A DNA stretch of 20,110 nucleotides from a virus, in IMG/VR virus record IMGVR_UViG_3300028909_000085, positions 1 to 20,110 of that record, one strand, 5' to 3'. A program made the position numbers and the translations under genes. Positions 2,607-19,668 of the stretch are shown one piece after another. The notes under the pieces are model-generated. The model ran no database searches. It saw only the letters and a program-made list of their open reading frames with translations, and was not told the origin of the DNA. Numbering within the stretch: position 1 is the first letter of the stretch; every line of letters starts with the position of its first letter.

Positions 2607-2634
2607 TTGACAAGTCCTAGAAATGGTGTAATAT
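2607..2634 (+). promoter_or_regulatory. sigma70 promoter for the HicA-like gene
   Basis: TTGACA at 2607-2612, 16-bp spacer, TAATAT at 2629-2634. The -10 box lies in the loop of the terminator hairpin at 2615-2645. A transcript starting near 2641 would contain only the 3' arm and so could not form the terminator. Confidence 0.7.
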
Positions 2635-2651
2635 CGTTTCTAGGATTTTTT
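2615..2651 (+). terminator. Rho-independent terminator after the SGNH gene
   Basis: Perfect 9-bp stem TCCTAGAAA (2615-2623) with TTTCTAGGA (2637-2645), 13-nt loop, then TTTTTT (2646-2651). It ends upstream transcripts, while the promoter embedded in it restarts transcription. Confidence 0.8.
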
Positions 2652-2663
2652 ATTGGAGCTACC

Positions 2664-2885
2664 ATGTCGCACAAAATTCCGGTCAATCTGTCCGAACGCG
2701 ATCTAAAGAAACTCATTGTAAAAAATGGGTGGATTTTAGAAAGAAATACTGGTGGTCACACGGTTTATGGGTTTCCCGGTCGCAAAGACAAAATTATCGT
2801 AGGTCGTCATGGAAAGAAAATTCCTCCCGGTAATATTCGTCAGACGCTTGAACAACTTCGTGGAAATGCTAACGTAGCATATTAA
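2664..2885 (+). CDS. HicA-like mRNA interferase family protein, no HicB partner
   Basis: 73 residues. The pattern is that of HicA (YcfA-like, double-stranded RNA-binding fold): an N-terminal helix, LIVKNGWILER, the TGGHTVY strand carrying the catalytic-type His, a basic KDKIIVGRHGKKIPPG segment and the closing helix NIRQTLEQL. Family knowledge: HicA toxins cleave mRNA and are normally paired with HicB. The next gene (2895) is an RNA ligase, so no antitoxin is adjacent. Start ATG 2664 is chosen because GGAG lies about 5-8 bases upstream and the homology begins there; the frame also opens earlier at TTG 2607, which is the promoter -35 box. It could be an active toxin, an inactive binding protein or a takeover RNase. 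Confidence 0.8.
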   Translation: MSHKIPVNLSERDLKKLIVKNGWILERNTGGHTVYGFPGRKDKIIVGRHGKKIPPGNIRQTLEQLRGNANVAY

Positions 2886-2894
2886 GGATTTAAA

Positions 2895-4043
2895 ATGTTT
2901 CCGATTATCAATCATATAGATGATGTTTTGCCTCATATTGCAGGAAACGATAATATCGTGGTCAATCGCAAGGATGACTATATCGTTATCGACTACATTC
3001 TTAATACGCCAGATACCTTCAACAATCCTTACGACAAGGAATGTCGTGGTCTGCTGTTCAATGCAGACGGAACGATCATGGCCCGTCGCCTACACAAGTT
3101 CTTCAACGTCAACGAGCGTCCTGAAGCTCTGGTGGAAAATCTTGACCTTTCCAAGCCTCATTGGATTTTGGAAAAGCTCGATGGCAGCATGATCACTCCT
3201 ATGATTACTCATGGTCTGTTGACTTGGGGTTCAAAGGCTGGTGTGACCTTCCTTACTCCGCAGATTGAAGAATTTGTGAAAGTAAACGATAATTATCGTG
3301 ATTTTGCAGAATTTATGATGATGATTGGATATACTCCAATTTTTGAATGGTGTTCACGCAAAAATAGAATTGTTATTGATCATCCTTTTGATCGTCTTGT
3401 ACTTATTGCCATTCGTGATACAGTTACAGGTAAGTATCAACCTTATGATTATTTTGATACTTATAAGAAAAATTATGGTATCGAAGTTGTAAATCAGTAT
3501 CTTGGTACTGTTGCAAACATGCAACAGCTTGCTGAAGATATCAAAGGAATGTCTGGTATCGAAGGCTTCGTAATTCGATTTGCTGACGGTCATATGGTGA
3601 AGGTTAAGTGCGACGAGTACTGCCGTTATCATAGGGCCAAGGACGATATTAGTCGTGAGAAGAATGTCATTTCAATTCTGATCAATGGTCAGGCAGACGA
3701 CTTTAAGGGCCTCCTTATGAAGGAAGATAAGGAAACCCTTGAACGCTTCGAACACGATTTCTGGATTGAATTCAGTGAGGTAGCCGAATTCAAAATTCTT
3801 GATATCCTTCAGGAAGTCAAATATCGTGATATAAGCCGAAAGGATTTCGCTCTCGGTTACACCAAACTTAACGGTCATGTTCGTGCAATTATTTTTAAAC
3901 TTTTTGATAAGCCTGATGTAACTCATGCTGATGTTATGACAGAAATGCTTGAAGTCATCAAAAAGAATATTAATCATCACGACAAGGTTCGTTTTCTTTG
4001 GGGCGGTCTAAATTGGGACAATTATCGGCTAGGTCTTTCCTAG
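2895..4043 (+). CDS. rnlA: T4 Rnl1-type RNA ligase
   Basis: 382 residues, close to the 374 of T4 Rnl1. Nucleotidyltransferase motifs in order: CRGLLFN and LHKFFNVNE upstream of the active site, motif I EKLDGSM with the adenylated Lys94, motif III-like FEWCSRKNRIV, motif IV EGFVIRF and motif V VKVK, then an all-helical C-terminal domain (roughly residues 245-380) as in Rnl1. Known role: ATP-dependent sealing of 5'-phosphate to 3'-OH ends, in T4 to repair tRNA cut by host anticodon nucleases. SD AAGGAT is nine bases before ATG 2895. Codon use shifts along the gene: GC-rich around 3040-3260 and 3600-3740, AT-rich between. Confidence 0.93.
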   Translation: MFPIINHIDDVLPHIAGNDNIVVNRKDDYIVIDYILNTPDTFNNPYDKECRGLLFNADGTIMARRLHKFFNVNERPEALVENLDLSKPHWILEKLDGSMITPMITHGLLTWGSKAGVTFLTPQIEEFVKVNDNYRDFAEFMMMIGYTPIFEWCSRKNRIVIDHPFDRLVLIAIRDTVTGKYQPYDYFDTYKKNYGIEVVNQYLGTVANMQQLAEDIKGMSGIEGFVIRFADGHMVKVKCDEYCRYHRAKDDISREKNVISILINGQADDFKGLLMKEDKETLERFEHDFWIEFSEVAEFKILDILQEVKYRDISRKDFALGYTKLNGHVRAIIFKLFDKPDVTHADVMTEMLEVIKKNINHHDKVRFLWGGLNWDNYRLGLS

Positions 4044-4050
4044 CCGATAA
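4022..4050 (+). terminator. strong hairpin across the end of the RNA ligase gene
   Basis: Perfect 12-bp stem TTATCGGCTAGG (4022-4033) with CCTAGCCGATAA (4039-4050), 5-nt loop TCTTT. The TAG stop lies inside the 3' arm. Only a broken T-run follows (ACTATCTTTT), so it may be a weak terminator or an RNA-stability hairpin between the ligase and the membrane-protein operon. Confidence 0.55.
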
Positions 4051-4073: not shown

Positions 4074-4514
4074 ATGTACAATAATACTTTTAAGTTAATA
4101 TTCGTCAATGTATTTCTTTTTTCTGTTGTAGGTATCTCATATTTCTATGGATACATTTCACAATATTTTGAAGATGATGCGAGTCGAATTTCTTATGTAT
4201 TGGCATTTTTGATTTTTTTAAATACAATCCTTACAATTTTTCAATCCTACAAAGATGAAAAGTTAGGTGTTAAAAATGCATCTGAGATTAAAAGATGGTT
4301 ACATTGGATTAAGCCTTACATGCCGTTTATTGGCGTCATAGGGACTTCTAAGGGTCTTAGCCTACTCTTTCATGCTCTCAATGTCTCAGGCGATCCCAAG
4401 GACATTCTAACGGCTTTGAAGGTAGGTTGTTTGACTCTTGCTAATACTACTCTTATTGGTCTGATCGGTTTCTTATGGTTAGGTTTTAACTTCTACCTTA
4501 TAGGTGAAGAATGA
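4074..4514 (+). CDS. ExbB/TolQ/MotA-like membrane channel subunit
   Basis: 146 residues with four hydrophobic segments at about 6-27, 38-58, 84-105 and 113-142. The last two carry the family pattern: PYMPFIGVIGTSKGLSLLFHAL resembles the G-x-x-GT-x-x-G-aromatic motif of ExbB/TolQ/MotA, and LTALKVGCLTLANTTLIGLIG resembles the ALxTTxxGL motif of their final helix. Family knowledge: five such subunits surround a dimer of ExbD/TolR/MotB and turn ion flow into mechanical work. It is shorter than cellular ExbB (about 240) and lacks their large cytoplasmic loop. The stop overlaps the start of the next gene (ATGA at 4511-4514), which encodes the matching single-TM partner. Recognition is by motif only, so remote homology is inferred. 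Confidence 0.6.
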   Translation: MYNNTFKLIFVNVFLFSVVGISYFYGYISQYFEDDASRISYVLAFLIFLNTILTIFQSYKDEKLGVKNASEIKRWLHWIKPYMPFIGVIGTSKGLSLLFHALNVSGDPKDILTALKVGCLTLANTTLIGLIGFLWLGFNFYLIGEE

Positions 4515-5122
4515 AATCAAAGCATCGTAATGCCGAAAGTCTTATAGGATGGATTTTATTCGACATTTCAATTCAGTTTGCTGCTGTCATGATGGCAATA
4601 TTCGTTGTAATGTCAATGTTACCTCAAGGCCCTAGTGACACAAATATCATTCCGGGTCGAATCTGTGCAGAAATTTATTGGCCTAATGATCGCGACGTAG
4701 ATTTAGATTTATGGGGAATAGCTCCTACTGAAAAGATTCCTGTACGTTATAGCCGTATGCATGGTGCTGGTCTAGACCTTTTCCGAGACGTTACAGGATT
4801 TGCTAATAATCCAGAACATACAAATATGGAAGTCATGTGCGGAAACAAGATTTATCCGGGTGAGTGGACATTCGACATTAATTATTTTTCAAATCATAAG
4901 GCTACCACTGTAGATCACTCTACCGATCCTATTGATGCTACTATGATTTTAAGAATTGTATATCCTGATAATTTTGGTCGTAGTCCTGTGGTATTAAAAA
5001 CTACATGGCATTTTACTCATGAAAAAGAAGATAAAACAATGTTCAACTTTCGTATAGATGACACAGGAACATTTGTAGATTCTTCATTTAATACTGTTAA
5101 TAAATTTCTTGCCGTTAGGTAA
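4511..5122 (+). CDS. single-TM protein with periplasmic DUF2135-like domain; ExbD/TolR/MotB-like partner
   Basis: 203 residues. One N-terminal TM helix (about 11-37, ILFDISIQFAAVMMAIFVV) contains an acidic residue, Asp18, placed as the proton-carrying Asp of ExbD/TolR/MotB. The rest should be periplasmic. Residues about 54-125 (DRDVDLDLWGIAP, then DLFRDVTGFANNPEH, then IYPGEWTFDINYF) resemble the DUF2135/YfaP beta-sandwich pattern DxDLxLxxxxP...DxTxGxxPE...PGxYxxxxxY. This replaces the peptidoglycan-binding or TolR-like domain of cellular partners. The start overlaps the upstream channel-like gene by four bases. Its role in the phage is unknown. Confidence 0.6.
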   Translation: MKSKHRNAESLIGWILFDISIQFAAVMMAIFVVMSMLPQGPSDTNIIPGRICAEIYWPNDRDVDLDLWGIAPTEKIPVRYSRMHGAGLDLFRDVTGFANNPEHTNMEVMCGNKIYPGEWTFDINYFSNHKATTVDHSTDPIDATMILRIVYPDNFGRSPVVLKTTWHFTHEKEDKTMFNFRIDDTGTFVDSSFNTVNKFLAVR

Positions 5123-5127
5123 ATAAT

Positions 5128-5619
5128 ATGAATATATTTGGTTATCCACTATTTTTTTGGTTTATACTTTCATTAGTATTTCTTGCAATTACTTTTTTTG
5201 TTGAAAGTAAGTATAGAATTTATGTATTGGTTGCAAATATTTTAATGATTTGTTTCATTTACGTCGGTATTGCTAATATTATTGGTTTACCAAAACCTTT
5301 AGATTATAGTATTCCTTTATATACTATGAGTAACAGTAAATTTATTATAGAAACAGGATGGTACGATGATAATAGAATCTATCTTGTTATTCGTGGAGAT
5401 ATTCCTAAATTAGTGACATTTCCACGAACAGACGAATTTCTTGATAGATTTAAGAAGGCAGTTGAAAGAAATGGTGGACAAAGTACTGGACTTATGTTAT
5501 CTGATAACTACGCAGGAGATTTAGCTGCTCACACATGGGGTGTTGAACCTCCACCAGTTTATGAACCTCCTAAAGATGAACGAGAAGAAAATGTCCAAGA
5601 ACGCCCAACGACCGATTGA
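5128..5619 (+). CDS. membrane protein with Pro-rich tail, third gene of the channel-like operon
   Basis: 163 residues. Two hydrophobic helices at about 5-25 and 30-55 are followed by a soluble domain (about 60-135) and a proline-rich, charged tail (PPPVYEPPKDEREE). Not recognised. It starts five bases after the previous stop, so it is almost certainly co-expressed with the ExbB/ExbD-like pair. Its topology would place the soluble domain on one side of the inner membrane, where it could couple the putative channel to another target. It overlaps the next gene by 29 bases. Confidence 0.65.
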   Translation: MNIFGYPLFFWFILSLVFLAITFFVESKYRIYVLVANILMICFIYVGIANIIGLPKPLDYSIPLYTMSNSKFIIETGWYDDNRIYLVIRGDIPKLVTFPRTDEFLDRFKKAVERNGGQSTGLMLSDNYAGDLAAHTWGVEPPPVYEPPKDEREENVQERPTTD

Positions 5620-5839
5620 TTATTATTTTGTGGAATGTATTGATTCTTCAAATACATGTGGTATTTTGAGTACAGGAACGATTTATTCAACTCGTTCTAA
5701 TCTTGATGATTACATGTATCACATTATCGAGAATCGTAATATGTGGAATTCATATCGATTTCGAAAGATCAGGGTTCCGAGCATCGACGTTATTGAAGCC
5801 TTAATTACAACTGAAGCCTTAAAAGAATTTAAAGGCTAA
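5591..5839 (+). CDS. small protein of unknown function
   Basis: 82 residues, soluble, beginning MSKNAQRPIDYYFVECID. The ATG at 5591 is preferred: it follows GAGAAG, whereas the earlier in-frame starts (5540 TTG, 5576 ATG) lie deep in the previous gene. Residues 10-45 look like beta strands (STGTIYSTRSNLDDY). It is fourth in the operon and overlaps both the previous gene (29 bases) and the convergent minus-strand gene (11 bases). No family recognised. Confidence 0.6.
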   Translation: MSKNAQRPIDYYFVECIDSSNTCGILSTGTIYSTRSNLDDYMYHIIENRNMWNSYRFRKIRVPSIDVIEALITTEALKEFKG

Positions 5840-6194
5840 AATTTCTTACTCTCAGGTAAACATTGTTACCTGAGATAACATTACCTGTATTACTTGTAAA
5901 TACGGTTTGTAGGATTAATGTTCTTTCATCTTCAAAAAGAGAATTAGCAAATAATTGTTGTGTTTGCACATTATTTGCTGTAATAGAAACATTAAAATTA
6001 TTCCAAGCATTAGGAAGGTTGTTGACAACTGCTCCGATTGTGCTATTAATGTATCCTACGTCTATGTTTGCTATAATGATAGGTTCGTAATCAAGAGTTA
6101 CGACATGGCTATTTACCGACCAAGATACAGTATTATCTAAAGTCGTATTGTAGCTATAAGAAAAATTTGTGTTTGCGTAAACGTTAATATCCAT
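5829..6194 (-). CDS. small Asn/Thr/Val-rich, probably beta-rich protein
   Basis: 121 residues, with few charges and rich in Asn, Thr, Ser and Val (NNFNVSITANNVQTQ, TVFTSNTGNVISGNN), the composition of phage virion or fibre-associated beta proteins. No Cys, no TM helix, no known domain. A minus-strand late box TATAAATA lies at 6207-6200, only five bases before the start codon, and another at 6296-6289. No Shine-Dalgarno sequence is visible before ATG 6194. It converges on the gene ending at 5839. It is unlike the plus-strand frames opposite it, which are broken. Confidence 0.6.
   Translation of the reverse strand: MDINVYANTNFSYSYNTTLDNTVSWSVNSHVVTLDYEPIIIANIDVGYINSTIGAVVNNLPNAWNNFNVSITANNVQTQQLFANSLFEDERTLILQTVFTSNTGNVISGNNVYLRVRNFSL
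5851..5874 (-). terminator. strong hairpin at the convergent gene ends
   Basis: Perfect 9-bp stem CTCAGGTAA (5851-5859) with TTACCTGAG (5866-5874), 6-nt loop. It lies within the last codons of the minus-strand gene and just after the plus-strand stop at 5839, so it can stop or protect transcripts from both sides. There is no long T-run. Confidence 0.45.
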
Positions 6195-6313: not shown

Positions 6314-7255
6314 ATGTCTCACAATGTCGAAACAATGGCCTACTCTGGTGAACGCCCTTGGCACTCTTTGGGTAATGCAGTTTCCAACGATCTTACGCCA
6401 GAGGAAATGATGATCGCTTCCGGGACGAATTGGACCGTCAGCAAGCATCCTATGTATTCCCGCATTGGTGAAAATGAAGTTCTGTTGTCTCGTCAGTCAC
6501 TTTTCCGTGACAGCGACAACACCGAACTCGATATTATCGGTGGTGATGACTGGAATGTCACACAGAATTCCGAGGCTTTCGCCTTCTTCAAGGAATTCGT
6601 CGAGCGTGGTGAAATGCAGATGGAAACTGCCGGTTCACTTCAGAATGGCAAGATCGTTTGGGTTCTCGCCAAGGTCAACAAGGAATTCAATCTTTTCAAT
6701 GGTGATAAGGTCGAAGGTCGTCTTCTGTTCTCCAACTTCCACAAGTATGGTTTCAGCCGCGATATTCGATTTACACCTACTCGTGTTGTCTGCAATAACA
6801 CCTTGACCATGGCTCTGAATGGTAAGGCCGATAAGGTTTTCAAGGCTTCTCACCGCGTCGTCATCAACAACGAAATTATCAAGGAAACTCTTGGTATTGT
6901 CGAAAAGAAGATGACCGAATACGAGGAACTTGCTACCTTCCTTGGTTCCAAGCAGTATAACGATGAAAGCGTCAAGGAATTCTTTAACGAAGTGTTTCCG
7001 AAGATTTCCAAGATTGCCGTCGAAAAGGAACTGAGCAAGAACGCCAAGGCTTCTGTTCTGGCTCTTGAGCATCAACCGGGTGTGGAATTCGCTCCGCATA
7101 GCTGGTGGCAGGCCGCAAATGCGGTAACGTATGTTACTGATCATCTTATGGGTCGTACCGAAGATGCTCGCGTAAGCAACATGTGGTACGGTCAGGTCAA
7201 GGACTTGAAGCTCCGAGCAATGACACTGGCTCTTGATTATGCGAATAAGAGTTAA
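6314..7255 (+). CDS. DUF932 family protein
   Basis: 313 residues from the chosen start. The N-terminus MSHNVETMAYSGERPWHSLG and the following layout are the hallmark of DUF932 (phage/plasmid-like protein family), which is common on plasmids and large phages and has no established function. Blocks seen: PWHSLG, then a strand-rich core (LFSNFHKYGFSRDIRFTPTRVVCNNTLTMAL, about residues 135-170), and a C-terminal EHQPGVEFAPHSWWQAANAVTYVTDHLMGR region. The frame opens at ATG 6278, but there the only purine run touches the start codon, and family members begin at the MSHN-type residue, so 6314 is preferred. It is expressed from its own strong promoter. Base composition is richer in G+C than its neighbours. 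Confidence 0.88.
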   Translation: MSHNVETMAYSGERPWHSLGNAVSNDLTPEEMMIASGTNWTVSKHPMYSRIGENEVLLSRQSLFRDSDNTELDIIGGDDWNVTQNSEAFAFFKEFVERGEMQMETAGSLQNGKIVWVLAKVNKEFNLFNGDKVEGRLLFSNFHKYGFSRDIRFTPTRVVCNNTLTMALNGKADKVFKASHRVVINNEIIKETLGIVEKKMTEYEELATFLGSKQYNDESVKEFFNEVFPKISKIAVEKELSKNAKASVLALEHQPGVEFAPHSWWQAANAVTYVTDHLMGRTEDARVSNMWYGQVKDLKLRAMTLALDYANKS

Positions 7256-7290
7256 GGGGTTTCCTTAACCTTCCTCTTACAAATCCTTCT

Positions 7291-7325
7291 AATGGTGTCT
7301 CTGAAATTAAAGCAGAGACACCATT
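7291..7325. repeat. 12-bp perfect inverted repeat
   Basis: AATGGTGTCTCT (7291-7302) pairs exactly with AGAGACACCATT (7314-7325), 11-nt loop. It lies 36 bases after the DUF932 stop and could protect or end that mRNA, though no T-run follows. The same bases encode the NNGVSALISETP part of the antisense endonuclease remnant. Confidence 0.6.
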
Positions 7326-7463
7326 ATTCCACCATAGTTTACCTAATCGATAATTTACTAATTTGTCTATGGTTTCTTGTTTCATTGGTCCGGTTTTGAG
7401 TCCCTTGTTCCAAGGTGCAATATTTCGTTTGTATTTTTTTCCTTTGTTCCATGGAATACGTCC

Positions 7464-7492
7464 TTGACAAGCTTCTGAATTTTTGCGATTAT
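7464..7492 (+). promoter_or_regulatory. sigma70 promoter for the gene at 7518
   Basis: TTGACA (7464-7469), 17-bp spacer, GATTAT (7487-7492). The predicted start near 7499 leaves a short leader with GGAG at 7507-7510. It lies inside the antisense endonuclease remnant, so it probably arose or was captured when that gene decayed. Confidence 0.55.
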
Positions 7493-7517
7493 GTTCTTTA
7501 GATTTTGGAGAAATGAA

Positions 7518-7739
7518 ATGACTGAATTTGAAAATGGTGATTATGTTTGGGTCAATTTAGGCGGAATATATCTTGGTGAAGTTATTGGTATTGCTTTTTA
7601 TTTAGCTGAAGTAACACTTTATATTGTGAACTGGATTGATAAACCAGAAAATACAAAATGGTCTGCTTCTGTTATTCCTTCTTCAAGCCTTGAAAAGGCA
7701 CATCCAGACAAATATTTACGAGTTATACAGAAGATATAG
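7518..7739 (+). CDS. small protein of unknown function
   Basis: 73 residues. N-terminal MTEFENGDYVWVNLGGIYLGEVIGIAFY reads like a small SH3-like or KOW-like beta barrel (hydrophobic-Gly alternation, W-V-N-L-G-G), but this is only a resemblance. Start 7518 has GGAG seven bases upstream; an earlier in-frame ATG at 7491 lies before the predicted transcription start. It is followed after seven bases by the HNH-ligase gene and is probably co-transcribed with it. Confidence 0.65.
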   Translation: MTEFENGDYVWVNLGGIYLGEVIGIAFYLAEVTLYIVNWIDKPENTKWSASVIPSSSLEKAHPDKYLRVIQKI

Positions 7740-7746
7740 GTGACTT

Positions 7747-8775
7747 ATGTTAATGACAAGAGACGCATTTAGAGAGGCTGTTCTCGCAAGAGACGGTCAC
7801 AAGTGCGTCTTCTGCTCTAGGAAGGCCGCAGACGCCCATCACATAATGGAACGTAGACTGTGGTCTGACGGTGGTTACTATCTCGCCAACGGTGCCTCTG
7901 TGTGCGAAGAACACCATATCAAATGTGAAACTACAGAAATCACGGTCGAGGAAGTCCGTGAAGCTTGCAAGATTGCCAAAAAGGTAATTCCAGAGCAGCT
8001 TTACGATGATCAGATTTATGACAAGTGGGGTAATATCCTGCTGCCGAATGGTCAACGCCTTAAAGGTGAATTATTTTTTGACGAAAGTGTTCAAAAGGTA
8101 TTGAAACAAGGTAAGGTTTTAGAAACTTTTACAAATTATATAAAATACCCTCGTACCTATCATTTACCTTGGTCAGAGAATATTACAGACGATGATCGTA
8201 TTATTAAATCTCTCGATAAATTCAAGGAAGGTCGTATCATCATAACTGAAAAAATGGATGGTGAAAATACGACTATGTATCGCGATTACATTCATGCTCG
8301 TAGCGTAGATGGTCGTCATCATCCTTCCAGAAATTATGTAAAACAATTCAGGTCTTCTATCTCACATGAGATACCAGAAGGATGGCGAGTCTGTGGAGAA
8401 AATCTCTACGCAGTCCATTCTATTCGATATGAAGACCTGAGTCACTATTTTCAGGGATTTTCAATCTGGAACGAAAAAAACATTTGCCTTTCTTGGGATG
8501 ATACATTAGAATGGTTTACTCTGCTCGGTATCACTCCGGTAAAAGTCCTTTATGATGGATTTTGGAATGAACGTGATATCCGAGCAATTGATTATTCTAT
8601 GGATTGGAGTAACCAAGAAGGATACGTTATTCGAGTAGCCGACGAGATTTCATACAATGACTTTCGTCTAAAAGTTTCAAAATATGTGCGAAAAAATCAT
8701 GTCCAAACCGTAAAGCATTGGATGCACGGTCAGGAAATTGAACAAAATTTATTGGAGAGAAAAAATGACAGTTAA
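7747..8775 (+). CDS. HNH domain fused to an RNA ligase domain
   Basis: 342 residues. Residues 1-62 form an intact HNH/McrA-like zinc module: CVFC (Cys20, Cys23), AHHI (His31, His32), Asn48 and CEEHH (Cys53, His56, His57). Residues about 110-330 are a nucleotidyltransferase of the RNA ligase/DRB0094-Rnl type: motif I EKMDGENT with Lys169, motif III-like GENLYAVHSI, motif IV NQEGYVIRV and motif V LKVSKYV. Known of the parts: HNH modules bind or cut nucleic acid; the ligase domain joins RNA ends with ATP. Inferred: a repair or splice-like enzyme that trims and seals RNA, or a ligase using the HNH for binding. It is the second ligase in the window after the one at 2895, and is upstream of a P-loop protein and a tRNA cluster. 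In-frame ATGs at 7747 and 7753 are both possible starts. Confidence 0.88.
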   Translation: MLMTRDAFREAVLARDGHKCVFCSRKAADAHHIMERRLWSDGGYYLANGASVCEEHHIKCETTEITVEEVREACKIAKKVIPEQLYDDQIYDKWGNILLPNGQRLKGELFFDESVQKVLKQGKVLETFTNYIKYPRTYHLPWSENITDDDRIIKSLDKFKEGRIIITEKMDGENTTMYRDYIHARSVDGRHHPSRNYVKQFRSSISHEIPEGWRVCGENLYAVHSIRYEDLSHYFQGFSIWNEKNICLSWDDTLEWFTLLGITPVKVLYDGFWNERDIRAIDYSMDWSNQEGYVIRVADEISYNDFRLKVSKYVRKNHVQTVKHWMHGQEIEQNLLERKNDS

Positions 8776-9557: not shown

Positions 9558-9647
9558 GCTCTGATACCAGTCCGGTCTTCTAAGCCGCAGTAACTGTAAC
9601 AGGAGGCGATAGCATCAATGCAGGTTCGAATCCTGCTCAGAGCGCCA
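9558..9647 (+). tRNA. aberrant tRNA-like gene, possible tRNA-Arg (TCT)
   Basis: Acceptor GCTCTGA (9558-9564) with TCAGAGC (9637-9643), T-arm GCAGG/CCTGC with loop TTCGAAT, and CCA (9645-9647) are all perfect. The middle is not: a plausible anticodon arm CCGGT-CTTCTAA-GCCGC (9572-9588, anticodon TCT, 33-T and 37-A correct, outermost pair C-C) starts only seven bases after the acceptor, leaving no room for a D-arm, and 31 bases lie between it and the T-arm. Automatic assignment could differ; the amino acid is uncertain. Confidence 0.5.
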
Positions 9648-10013: not shown

Positions 10014-10097
10014 GGGCTCATGGCGGAACGGCAGACGCAGCGCGCTTAGAACGCGCCGAGTAAAATCATGGGGGTTCAAGTCCCTCTGGGCCTACCA
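10014..10097 (+). tRNA. tRNA-Leu (TAG)
   Basis: Acceptor GGGCTCA/TGGGCCT, Leu-type D-arm (GCG-GAACGGCAGA-CGC), anticodon stem GCGCG/CGCGC with loop CTTAGAA (anticodon TAG), class II variable region of 13 bases, T-stem GGGGG/CCCTC with loop TTCAAGT, CCA at 10095-10097. Confidence 0.92.
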
Positions 10098-10109
10098 TTT
10101 AAATTAAAA

Positions 10110-10192
10110 GCCCGTATGGTGGAATTGGTAGACGCAGGGGACTTAAAATCCCCCGAGAAATCGTGTAGGTTCAAGTCCTACTACGGGCACCA
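10110..10192 (+). tRNA. tRNA-Leu (TAA)
   Basis: Acceptor GCCCGTA/TACGGGC, anticodon stem GGGGA/TCCCC with loop CTTAAAA (anticodon TAA), class II variable arm, T-stem GTAGG/CCTAC with loop TTCAAGT, discriminator A, CCA at 10190-10192. It lies 12 bases after the other Leu tRNA. Confidence 0.95.
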
Positions 10193-12060: not shown

Positions 12061-12104
12061 TTTATTCCTTATAAATATTTGAGATATTTATTTAAAGGAA
12101 TAAA
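12061..12104. promoter_or_regulatory. palindromic divergent late promoter and ribosome-binding region
   Basis: TTTATTCCTT (12061-12070) mirrors AAGGAATAAA (12095-12104), and ATAAATAT (12071-12078) mirrors ATATTTAT (12084-12091). Each half carries a late box (TATAAATA at 12070-12077 on plus; AATAAATA on minus at 12092-12085) and an AAGGAA Shine-Dalgarno. If both strands were read through, each transcript could fold its own ribosome site into this hairpin. Confidence 0.7.
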
Positions 12105-12105
12105 A

Positions 12106-15100
12106 ATGGCATCTAGTCTAGCTAGTCGTATGGGTTCATCATTTTCAGAATGGTCTAAGGGAGTCGCTCAAAAAACATGGGACGACTCATTTCCTATGTT
12201 CAAAGGCGCTCTCTTCGATAAGTCATCTGAAGACAAGGATGATGATGAAAAACTTGATTATTTAAAGAAAAGTGATGCTATTAATGATTCGATTTCGAAT
12301 AATACTAATTCTTTAAATACTGTAGGCAGTCATCTAGAATCTGGAATTCTGGATGAATTAGGAAATATTCATACTACTCTTTCTAAGAGTAATGAAATAC
12401 TTGTTGCTATGCAGATAGATACTCATGATCTTGTCAAAAAATTCTCTGGTTTAGAACAAAATTTAAAATTAGCCGGAAATTCAGACGGTGATTCTTCTGG
12501 TGGAAAGGGTAATTCACCTTCTAGTGGCGGTGCAGATGAATTATTAGATGTTGCTGAAGGTGTTGGTATTGGTGCCATGTTCAAAAAGATGGTGCCATTA
12601 CTCGTCGGTGCCATTACTTCACCTGAAGTTGTAGGTGCTCTGGCTGTTGCTGGTGTAGGTGCAACAGCCTATTATATAGGAACAAAAGCTGATGAAAAAA
12701 ATAAAGAAGATAAAGAAAAAGAATCTAAAGTAAAAGATATATTTAAAAAAGTATATACTGAAGACGAATTGAAAAAAGCTGATGAAGTAAGCAATAAGAA
12801 TGCTCGTCTCGACGATGAAATTTCAGATGCTAATATAGACCCATTAAATCCTTTTCATGCTACACTTACTCCTTCTGATCCTAAAGATAAAAATAATTCA
12901 TCTAATCCTATTGAAAGACAAAAGGGTAAGATTGAAGACCTCAACAAAAGTGTAATTGAAGAAATTGATAAAAAGATTACTGCTACTAAAGAAACAATAG
13001 CTTCTTTAACGGCCATGGATACTCATTTAGAGTCTAATATTAATAGTAAACTTTATAATATAACTCATACTGAATCTTCTGTTGATGAAACAAAGAAGAC
13101 AGAAGAATCTACCCGAACAGAGATTTTAGAATCTTTGAAGATTCAGAAGCAATTAGAAGATCAAAAGACCTCTATTTTAGAAGAACAAAAAACTAAAATG
13201 GAAGAAATTAATGGTATTTTAAGTAAAATTGACCTTTCCAATCTAATTGAACAAGGAAAATCTGAACACGGTCGAAGTGCTGATGGTTCTCTTATTCGCG
13301 ATTCAAAGATGAAAGGATACGAACATGGACAGACAGGCGACGTTCTCTTTACCGATCCTGTAGGAAAGATTAACAATCCTATAATTCCTTCTACTGGTCC
13401 TTCTTCACATTATGCAGGCGGTGGAGGCTCACAAAGCCATTCAGGCGGTCATCAGGAAGCTCCTAAACCCACATTGACCAAGGATCAGGAAGAAGCCTTT
13501 AATGCTGTCCAGAGTGGCTCTTTGTCTGCTGACGATCCTAAAGCAAAAGCATTGGAAAGTTTAAGTCCAGAACAATTGGCTGCTGGTGGAATTGAAAAGA
13601 CTGAAATAGGAGGTCACTTTTCTTACAGTACAAAGAAAATTACCGACGAAGAAGCCAAGAAAGAAATTCCTCAAAAAGGAAATAGTAGAGAAGTCGCAGA
13701 GAAATATCTTGGAAGAAAAATGTCTGATGATGAATATCATCAGTTAAAAGCCGCTACAGTAGCCGAATCAGGAGGAAATCCTAAAGAAGATGCTATGGTT
13801 ATGGCTTCTATTCTTAATAGAGCAAGAGGATCAAAAGAAGGTGGTGTTATTGATGCACTTCATGCTCCTAATCAGTTTCAATCTGTCACAGGAACAAGTG
13901 CTGACGGTCATAGATCAAGTAGTAATTTTACTAATCCTAATCCTAAGAGATTAAGTCAAGTAGAAGAAAATGCTTCTGATTATCTTGATAATATTTCTCA
14001 TGATCAAAAGAACTTTACTGCTAATAGTTCAAAGGCTTATGGACCGGGAACCAATATTGGTTATCGTGACAACATGCTTGCTAGTGGTGGACAAGTTGTT
14101 GGAGGAAGCGTATTTAATACTGCTGCACCAACGGATAAAATTGTTAGACCTGTAGATGATAAAGATATCACACCAGAAGAATTAGCACAAGGTAAACAAG
14201 CAGTTATCGCAAGTCGTAAAGAAGCTTTGGCTGGTAGTATAGGTAAAAAATCTGATACGACACAGGAAGCAATTTCTGGCAGAAAGCCTGTATTATTAGC
14301 TGCTGGAACTAATGATTGGGATGATCCTAAAAAATCATACGAAGGTGTTAAGAAATCTATTGATGAATTAAAAGCAAAGGGTTACGATCCCGTTCTTGTT
14401 CTTCCTCGTAAAGATATGACTGCTAGTGGTCAGAAGTCTCCTACAAGTAATGCTTATGATGGAGCCTTAAAGGCTGCTACCGAAGCTGGTGTTAAAACTG
14501 AATATCCTTCAGGATGGGGTAAAGGTGAAGATAATTATCATATGACTTCTGAAGCTGGAAAAGAAATCAGAGACAAATATCCGGGTGCTATGATAATTGG
14601 TGACAGTAATGCTGGTCAAGGTAGATTGAGTGCTGTTGCTAATCCAAACTCTTTTAGTGGTAAAGGTAGTAGCTATGTAGCTGATAAAATTAGTGATTTA
14701 CCTAATGTAGCAAATTCTGATTCTATTTCAGAATCTAAGGTAGATCGTCCTAAGACACCACAAGATGTAATTGAACATTTAAGTGAAGCAAAGCGTCAAG
14801 GTTTGATTACTAATGATGAATGTGTTTCTCTTACTGCTGCATCTGTAGGTGTTAAATTAGGTGATCCTAAGCAAGGTGCAGACGCCTATGCTTCAAATTG
14901 GGTAGGTAAAGGCGCTCCTAGTAAAGATACCGCTATTGGAACACCTTTAATTACAACAACTCCTGATGGTCGTTATGCTGCTGGTACTGGTGGTGTCGGT
15001 GGTATTGGTCGTGATCATGGTGTAAATCTTCTTAAGATGGATACTGACGATAAAGGAAGTGTAAAAGGTGCATGGGTAGCTAATCAGTGGAATGGAAATG

Positions 15101-15750
15101 GTTTTGATCCTAATAATCCTGAAAAGAATCAAAAATATATTCCGTATACTGGTAAAGGTGGAGAATGGGATTTAGCTTCTTATCAGTTAGCTGGTGTTAA
15201 TGATGGTAAAGGTGGTTCACATTTATTAGGTAAAGATAATAATCCAGAGCAGGCAAGACAAAATGAAATTAAAATTGCTGAGTTACATAGAACCGAACAA
15301 ATGAAAGGTCGTAATAGTCAAAATTTGGATAGTATTGTTAAAAAATCTAGTGAAGAAGATTCTTATAATACGTCTAAGACTTCTACATTATCTAATGATA
15401 CTATTAGTAATGTTAAAGAATCTAGTGTAACTAATTCTAATTTAAGTAATATTATGAATCCTGAAAAGTCTTATTTTGATCCTGACATGACTGTTAAACA
15501 AGATAATCCTCTTGTTAATAATCTTGTACAGAAATCCAAGGAAGATTCTTATAATACGTCTAAGCCTCCTGCACCAACACAAATTAGTAGTCCTGTTCAA
15601 GCAGTTCAAAATAATATGCTTGACAATAAATCTCATCATGATAATATGCTAAAGAATATGAGAGGTCGTAATGTGGCCCCTCCTGATGAAAGATTAAAAG
15701 AATTGTTTGTGACACAGGCTCCTAATGGTCGAGCCTCAGGTTCAGTTTAA
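12106..15750 (+). CDS. 1214-residue multi-enzyme hydrolase (SleB-like, SGNH-like and Cys/His amidase-like domains)
   Basis: Start ATG 12106 (AAAGGAA upstream; the frame opens at TTG 12079 in the promoter palindrome). Residues about 1-135: helical; 160-195 hydrophobic (PLLVGAITSPEVVGALAVAG); about 260-400 coiled coil; 420-460 Gly/His-rich. About 525-665: Hydrolase_2/SleB-like, with Glu554 in TVAESGGNPKEDAMVMASILNRARG and QF downstream. About 725-860: SGNH-like, but GTND (734-737) and DNYH (809-812) come before GDS (Ser834). About 890-1010: CHAP/BPSL0067-like, with Cys906 in NDECVSLT, His971 in RDHGVNLL and VANQW. The C-terminus has a repeated EDSYNTSK. Likely a virion-associated or lysis protein that cuts glycan, ester and peptide bonds of the cell envelope; opposite a holin and late-promoted. 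The functional assignment of each domain is by motif. Confidence 0.75.
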   Translation: MASSLASRMGSSFSEWSKGVAQKTWDDSFPMFKGALFDKSSEDKDDDEKLDYLKKSDAINDSISNNTNSLNTVGSHLESGILDELGNIHTTLSKSNEILVAMQIDTHDLVKKFSGLEQNLKLAGNSDGDSSGGKGNSPSSGGADELLDVAEGVGIGAMFKKMVPLLVGAITSPEVVGALAVAGVGATAYYIGTKADEKNKEDKEKESKVKDIFKKVYTEDELKKADEVSNKNARLDDEISDANIDPLNPFHATLTPSDPKDKNNSSNPIERQKGKIEDLNKSVIEEIDKKITATKETIASLTAMDTHLESNINSKLYNITHTESSVDETKKTEESTRTEILESLKIQKQLEDQKTSILEEQKTKMEEINGILSKIDLSNLIEQGKSEHGRSADGSLIRDSKMKGYEHGQTGDVLFTDPVGKINNPIIPSTGPSSHYAGGGGSQSHSGGHQEAPKPTLTKDQEEAFNAVQSGSLSADDPKAKALESLSPEQLAAGGIEKTEIGGHFSYSTKKITDEEAKKEIPQKGNSREVAEKYLGRKMSDDEYHQLKAATVAESGGNPKEDAMVMASILNRARGSKEGGVIDALHAPNQFQSVTGTSADGHRSSSNFTNPNPKRLSQVEENASDYLDNISHDQKNFTANSSKAYGPGTNIGYRDNMLASGGQVVGGSVFNTAAPTDKIVRPVDDKDITPEELAQGKQAVIASRKEALAGSIGKKSDTTQEAISGRKPVLLAAGTNDWDDPKKSYEGVKKSIDELKAKGYDPVLVLPRKDMTASGQKSPTSNAYDGALKAATEAGVKTEYPSGWGKGEDNYHMTSEAGKEIRDKYPGAMIIGDSNAGQGRLSAVANPNSFSGKGSSYVADKISDLPNVANSDSISESKVDRPKTPQDVIEHLSEAKRQGLITNDECVSLTAASVGVKLGDPKQGADAYASNWVGKGAPSKDTAIGTPLITTTPDGRYAAGTGGVGGIGRDHGVNLLKMDTDDKGSVKGAWVANQWNGNGFDPNNPEKNQKYIPYTGKGGEWDLASYQLAGVNDGKGGSHLLGKDNNPEQARQNEIKIAELHRTEQMKGRNSQNLDSIVKKSSEEDSYNTSKTSTLSNDTISNVKESSVTNSNLSNIMNPEKSYFDPDMTVKQDNPLVNNLVQKSKEDSYNTSKPPAPTQISSPVQAVQNNMLDNKSHHDNMLKNMRGRNVAPPDERLKELFVTQAPNGRASGSV
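15355..15564 (+). repeat. 24-bp direct repeat inside the hydrolase gene's C-terminal part
   Basis: The block starting GAAGATTCTTATAATACG is identical for 24 bases at 15355-15378 and 15541-15564, 186 bp apart, with similar bases just before each copy. Both encode EDSYNTSK in a Ser/Asn-rich linker. It could mediate deletion or amplification, or be a short peptide binding motif. Confidence 0.75.
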
Positions 15751-19575: not shown

Positions 19576-19668
19576 GTATCTATAGTGTAACGGTTAGCAC
19601 ACGGTCCTTATAAGTCCGCACCGACAGATTATCGGGTAGTCTAGGTTCGAATCCTAGTAGATACACCA
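19576..19668 (+). tRNA. tRNA with TAT anticodon and long variable arm (Ile TAT by anticodon)
   Basis: Acceptor GTATCTA/TAGATAC perfect, D-arm GTGT-AACGGTTA-GCAC, anticodon stem CGGTC/GTCCG (one T-T mismatch at 30-40, as in tRNA-Met here) with loop CTTATAA (anticodon TAT), T-arm CTAGG/CCTAG with loop TTCGAAT, CCA at 19666-19668. The variable region is 22 bases and forms a CCGA/TCGG hairpin, as in class II tRNAs (Leu, Ser, Tyr), which conflicts with Ile identity. Confidence 0.7.

Follow-up and report, generated by a model that had tools for sequence, protein, structure and literature searches.

Flagella, iron uptake, the upkeep of the outer membrane, gliding and one anti-phage defence all run on ion-driven motors of the MotA/TolQ/ExbB superfamily. 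In the systems covered by Pfam family MotA_ExbB (PF01618), namely ExbBD, TolQR and MotAB/PomAB, a channel subunit with pore motifs in its last two helices is paired with the product of an adjacent gene, which carries an aspartate in its membrane helix and an ExbD-type or OmpA-like domain. The cytoplasmic domain of the channel subunit lies between the second and third helices in MotA and between the first and second in ExbB. The available extract of Puente-Lelievre et al. 2025 (PMC12505986) describes 'generic ion transporters', non-flagellar A/B pairs with varied added domains, many of them of unknown function, for which roles in uptake, envelope stress and phage defence are suggested.

The three genes described here (A, B and C) share with the PF01618 systems the pore motifs of the last two helices, the equivalents of ExbB Thr148 and Thr181, and an adjacent B gene with a membrane aspartate. 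They differ from these systems in that the cytoplasmic domain is nearly gone from the phage proteins (phage A has one at neither the MotA nor the ExbB position), the domain of B is a DUF2135-like beta domain, an extra protein C is present, and there is no TonB or TolA. Neither the trio, nor a DUF2135-type B, nor phage-borne members are described in that extract of PMC12505986. The first-pass annotation had recognized a stator-like set of genes in one T4-like phage and knew of no described function for the arrangement. We likewise found none; however, the arrangement is not peculiar to one T4-like phage. The trio is a proteobacterial chromosomal operon carried in reduced form by several unrelated phage groups, which had been missed earlier. 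We found no described system that matches its DUF2135-type B, its C protein, the operon itself or its reduced form in phages. The literature searches, which covered open-access papers and are thus weak evidence of absence, returned no paper dealing with DUF2135 or with an ExbB/MotA-like cassette carried by a phage, and no description of a phage with its own complete motor cassette or of the chromosomal operon.

The cassette and its genomic setting

The window, the whole stretch of DNA analysed here, is a 20,110-base IMG/VR fragment. Its assignment to a T4-like phage, made earlier from the sequence, agrees with PHROG matches to RNA ligase/tail-fibre attachment protein, ssDNA-binding protein, tail tube, DNA end protector and baseplate hub families; a DNA-level search of phages gave no match. 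Genes A (4074..4514, 146 amino acids), B (4511..5122, 203 amino acids) and C (5128..5619, 163 amino acids) are all on the + strand, between an RNA ligase gene upstream (2895-4043) and a phrog_1221 gene downstream. A and B overlap by 4 bases (ATGA), as do motA and motB of E. coli, and B and C are separated by 5 bases, as expected of the three overlapping or near-abutting membrane-protein genes first noticed at this place.

A 12-bp hairpin (4022..4050, + strand; -19.3 kcal/mol, z -7.0) lies where the RNA ligase gene ends, and its 3' arm is spanned by GATAAATACTATC, which has one mismatch to the T4 late promoter core TATAAATA. Together they form a possible transcription boundary of the cassette. 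A late promoter upstream of A was considered but is not claimed, because sites resembling TATAAATA number 50 in the window against 56 expected and the related 107-kb contig L002 has no such motif before its A gene, and also lacks the hairpin/promoter-like element there.

Several other features of the window were recorded. A second RNA ligase gene (7747-8775, +) encodes an HNH-endonuclease-like N-terminus fused to the ligase (phrog_24030, 1.4e-139). The frame at 2607-2885 (+) looks, by sequence reading, like a small HicA/YcfA-type RNA-binding toxin, with no HicB-like partner seen, and the 1,223-residue protein encoded at 12079-15750 (+), which has no PHROG match, includes internal segments that read as SGNH-hydrolase-like and cell-wall-hydrolase-like. 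Six tRNA genes (Met, Pro, Ala, Leu, Leu and Ile) were detected by ARAGORN at 1140-1602, 10014-10192 and 19576-19668, and Rfam gave a seventh at 9558-9644.

Comparison of the three subunits with known motor proteins

Hydropathy places the transmembrane stretches of A near residues 6-24, 39-57 and 111-138, and the AF2 model (pLDDT 85) adds a long helix at 71-103, giving four helices in an otherwise MotA-like order. The cytoplasmic loop between TM2 and TM3 has only about 20 residues, and just four residues follow the last helix. The TM3 pore motif GVIGTSKG occupies residues 87-94 (4332..4355, +), and TM4 contains LANTTLIGL, of which NTTLIG (4443..4460, +) includes Thr126. The window A by itself scores below the cut-off of PF01618 (E 0.01, 16.0 bits against 22.9). 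The same family was matched by all five of the first A relatives (best 4.6e-6) and by 21 of 25 later ones at E <= 0.1, and the chromosomal A proteins of loci L046 and L052 reach 36.7 and 36.1 bits, respectively. Profile searches of A, one of the checks proposed with the first-pass annotation, returned chiefly superfamily members: the A-family profile matched MotA (3e-6), ZorA (1.7e-5), ExbB (0.005), TolQ (0.009) and also PomA in the PDB, over the last two helices, and its single unrelated match was a chance-level one (0.76) to the F-ATPase c subunit. The earlier placing of the superfamily motifs in these two helices is confirmed. A Foldseek search, also proposed, was less decisive. Most of the 24 best matches of the A model are ExbB, MotA/PomA, TolQ or ZorA, but with E > 0.1, possibly because the cytoplasmic domain is missing, and those of the B model (pLDDT 72) are weak and mixed beta-sandwich proteins.

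Conservation follows the same residues. Gly87, Gly90 and Thr126 are invariant in 66 of 66 A subunits, and Gly129 is present in 63. A profile alignment to E. coli ExbB sets Thr91 and Thr126 of the A family on Thr148 and Thr181, both of which are called conserved in a Ton/Tol cryo-EM paper (PMC12215075). The Thr91 position is Thr in 49 of the 66 and Asn in 15, all of the latter belonging to the 16-3-like phage group. On these alignments, A almost certainly belongs to the MotA/TolQ/ExbB superfamily as a remote relative. It descends from the superfamily and probably works like it, yet is not a canonical MotA, TolQ or ExbB.

Gene B encodes an ExbD/TolR/MotB-like subunit with a sole transmembrane helix (residues 15-33, by hydropathy). 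Asp18, near the start of this helix (codon 4562..4564, +), had been put at the proton-carrier place, and this survives comparison: the residue, presumed to carry the ion, is kept in all 28 phage B proteins and in 38 of 41 chromosomal ones, so that the refuting condition set with the first-pass annotation, a non-conserved Asp18, does not apply. The three chromosomal proteins without it (L108, L120 and L123) are possibly non-conducting variants; L120 and L123 also have two C-like matches and Ser in place of Gly129 of A. The absence of the Asp in 3 of 41 chromosomal B proteins, and the Asn at the Thr91 position in 15 of 25 phage A proteins, suggest that some members may not conduct ions. Chromosomal B proteins often read DPFTDLLFN, close to the TPFIDVML of ExbD. 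A local alignment of DPFTDLL to TPFIDVM sets the Asp on ExbD Asp25, with a score that was reached by 4 of 200 shuffles, and the best local alignment to MotB sets it on MotB Asp32. No match of B to Pfam ExbD/MotB was seen. The resemblance of B to ExbD and MotB appears weak by itself, and stronger given the neighbouring A gene.

Beyond the helix, B is predicted to consist of beta strands. A PDB search with the B profile gave nothing useful, and neither an ExbD-type nor an OmpA-like peptidoglycan-binding domain was among the Pfam or PDB matches. DUF2135 (PF09906, YfaP-like) is the commonest weak Pfam match of the chromosomal B proteins (13 of 29, best E 0.0057; 12.2 bits against a cut-off of 22 for that of L052), but none of the 28 phage B proteins, that of the window included, matches it at E <= 0.1. 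The earlier naming of a DUF2135-like domain in B therefore finds weak support on chromosomes, whereas the domain is undetectable in the window protein itself.

Gene C encodes the two helices and the Pro-rich tail first read from the sequence: hydropathy gives transmembrane stretches at 7-25 and 31-49 with a positively charged link between them, and the tail is EPPPVYEPPKDERE. By the positive-inside rule, the charged link implies that the small C-terminal domain should be periplasmic. Two C-terminal prolines and one lysine are nearly invariant in the chromosomal C proteins. A 23-sequence profile of C matched nothing in the PDB, and no NCBIfam or Pfam match was above cut-off. C weakly matches phrog_3619, an uncharacterised phage family of unknown function that is also matched by the window A over most of its length (6.9e-5).

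Two described machines were considered as identities for the trio and rejected. A flagellar stator of the MotAB type would need a FliG-binding torque domain, for which there is no room between TM2 and TM3 of A. A Ton or Tol system does not fit C, which has two transmembrane helices, is not TonB- or TolA-like and has no PDB match.

Relatives in phages and on chromosomes

A tblastn search with B found relatives in Sinorhizobium phage AP-16-3 and Rhizobium phages RHph_TM3_3_14B and RHph_I1_18. Second-round searches added phage 16-3, members of the Pootjesviridae (P10VF, N34 and others), RHph_N3_19 and X2_25, and a search of IMG/VR added L002 and about 17 phage or prophage contigs. No relatives were found by a viral protein search with the window A, by a protein search of phages with A alone, or by a viral scan with the B of RHph_I1_18; a viral scan with the A of L002 found its own near-copies only. 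L002 carries the same trio with 46% identity in B and 39% in A, and its neighbours are those of the window, an RNA ligase gene upstream and a phrog_1221-like gene downstream. Conservation of gene order, another of the proposed checks, is complete, with A-B-C present in 27 of the 27 related phage loci read. The loci represent 16-3, Pootjesviridae and T4-like lineages, which are unrelated to one another, and all named hosts are Rhizobium or Sinorhizobium.

In phage 16-3 the trio corresponds to p038, p040 and p042, and the annotation of the trio in related phages is uninformative throughout. The 16-3-like genomes read have a trypsin-like protease gene just upstream. Small or homing-endonuclease genes lie between members of the trio in some phage loci, the homing-endonuclease genes being inside the cassette (A/B or B/C) in four of them. 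The annotated starts of RHph_N3_19 EVB99_065 (5562-5990 of its fetched region) and AP-16-3 UYE95755 (6034-6525) are too late and truncate the sequence of the N-terminal transmembrane helix; the likely starts are upstream.

Two chromosomal loci came from a genome scan: in a SAR116 bacterium the trio adjoins ABC-transporter genes, and in an uncultured gammaproteobacterium it is flanked by L,D-transpeptidase-like and tilS-like genes (neighbours named from their own sequence). The A subunits of both score above the PF01618 cut-off. The B profile matches 42 of 369 gammaproteobacterial and 62 of 385 alphaproteobacterial genomes, so that the operon is found in about one-ninth and one-sixth, respectively, of the genomes sampled. 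The first-sampled chromosomal set comprised 40 fetched regions and the SAR116 and gammaproteobacterial loci, and in 41 of these 42 the genes A, B and C follow one another in that order on the same strand. The exception, L107, has two tandem B-like genes (6917-7573 and 7617-8153), and no A or C was recognised near them. The trio is likewise present in each of the 29 further Hyphomicrobiales loci that were read, and Azospirillum megaplasmids also have relatives of B.

A DUF3108-like lipoprotein gene is a frequent neighbour directly downstream in both alpha- and gammaproteobacteria, and the lipoprotein is likely a fourth part of the chromosomal system. Twelve of the loci read have such a gene (about 235 residues, YFPL...G..W.Y) directly after C, and that of L125 is DUF3108-like. 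Alternatively, a vWA-FHA or FHA protein is encoded downstream and a DUF302-type lipoprotein upstream. Five loci have a vWA-type gene after C, most of them with a DUF302-type lipoprotein gene before A; both of the vWA proteins that were scanned (L109 and L113) have a C-terminal FHA domain, and an FHA membrane protein takes the place of the vWA-type gene in L112 and L120. These lipoprotein and vWA-FHA neighbours suggest that the system works in the envelope, with a partner in the outer membrane or periplasm.

In a tree of B subunits, phages occupy at least two places. The Pootjesviridae, N3_19 and I1_18 fall inside one chromosomal clade, and the 16-3-like phages, together with the window lineage, are next to a clade of alphaproteobacteria. 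Branches with good support require a minimum of two changes between phage and bacterium; the tree was built quickly, has an arbitrary root and places the window and L002 on a long branch, and it leaves the direction and exact number of changes unfixed. The wider chromosomal distribution suggests that the direction was from bacterium to phage. Asp35 and Gly87 of A are 38-52 residues apart in phages, compared with 62-125 (median 111) in bacteria, and by this measure most of the A cytoplasmic domain is absent in phages. The short loops of both phage groups suggest that it was lost in parallel. Thus, a membrane motor of bacteria appears to have entered these phages of root-nodule bacteria on two or more occasions.

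Candidate functions of the phage trio

We consider it likely that A, B and C make up a minimal inner-membrane complex of the MotA/ExbB superfamily, driven by ion-motive force and acting in the envelope of the infected cell. A would form a ring, presumably of 5:2 stoichiometry with B, and B would be the axle, with Asp18 carrying an ion past the pore threonines of A. The movement of B would be passed to its own periplasmic DUF2135-like domain, and C would be the membrane partner. The phages would have acquired the trio from a proteobacterial chromosomal operon and then lost most of the A cytoplasmic domain, and because of this loss the output should lie in the membrane or periplasm. An ion-coupled A-B complex is highly probable, and an output in the envelope rather than the cytoplasm is probable. 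During infection the complex probably reworks or guards the cell envelope.

The retained pore residues, the lost cytoplasmic domain and a C protein without a recognisable force-transducing domain would also suit a regulated ion leak, in which A and B would let ions through but do no useful mechanical work, and would lower the proton motive force (PMF), timing lysis or shutting down the host. However, a plain leak needs neither the periplasmic domain of B nor C, and the former and all of the latter are kept in every locus. The persistence of the chromosomal versions in many bacteria is hard to square with toxicity, and in the Rhizobium phages that have an annotated lysozyme the trio is a few kbp from it and not adjoining. 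We regard a leak as unlikely.

Also unlikely is a phage or prophage defence of the Zorya type, in which the motor would sense envelope damage from an incoming phage and trigger an effector. The trio is carried by temperate 16-3-like phages, among solved structures the chromosomal A is closest to the motor domain of a type I ZorA (3.3e-4), and the best NCBIfam and PADLOC matches of the chromosomal A proteins are mostly ZorA models. Against this, the window A, B and C have no PADLOC match, and most of the genes read next to the chromosomal trios have housekeeping or envelope roles. An identity with Zorya itself was rejected, since A has no long cytoplasmic ZorA tail, B has no peptidoglycan-binding ZorB domain and effector genes are absent: ZorC, ZorD or ZorE was not found among the ten window genes (PHROGs) or the neighbours read in relatives.

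That the phage A is a shortened version of the chromosomal A could indicate a poison or mimic, with dominant-negative subunits acting on the flagellar stator, Ton or Tol system of the host or on its own copy of the operon. Such copies are rare, only 4 of 249 Rhizobiaceae genomes having a match and three of the four carrying the short, phage-type A. This argues against interference with a host copy and implies that the phages bring a machine that their hosts usually lack. Moreover, a poison would need one subunit, whereas the phages keep A, B and C together, and in profile searches the outer domain of B and the whole of C have no similarity to MotB, TolR or TolA. We consider this explanation rather doubtful; the earlier suggestion of a block on a host defence built from the same parts finds no support, and there is no sign of a Zorya system. 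From the chromosomal relatives and the homing-endonuclease genes beside or within several cassettes it could be argued that the trio came in through recombination with host DNA, as a passenger under no selection in phages, but this is very hard to reconcile with at least two separate captures, tightly packed open frames, and gene order and key residues conserved across unrelated lineages at 20-45% identity.

For the envelope complex that we favour, the likeliest single function is superinfection exclusion, which we offer tentatively and as a guess; we rank it above dissipation of the PMF or timing of lysis, defence of the Zorya kind and interference with host motors. The neighbouring genes give no specific pointer to it. 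Both temperate (16-3) and apparently virulent (Pootjesviridae, T4-like) phages carry the trio, which would fit a service of use to any phage during infection, for instance excluding a second phage or reshaping the envelope.

A broader reading, to which we give a probability of roughly 55%, is that A, C and a B of the DUF2135 type, in many cases accompanied by a lipoprotein or vWA-FHA partner, represent a new family of ion-driven, 5:2-type envelope motors that is widespread on proteobacterial chromosomes, and that Rhizobiales phages acquired it two or more times, reduced it to a motor lacking the cytoplasmic domain and use it for control of the envelope in infected cells. Since 16-3, long known as a temperate phage of Sinorhizobium meliloti, carries the trio, the role of these genes is directly testable by gene removal. 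The phage version, with little beyond its membrane helices and a periplasmic domain, may provide a minimal model of how such motors work.
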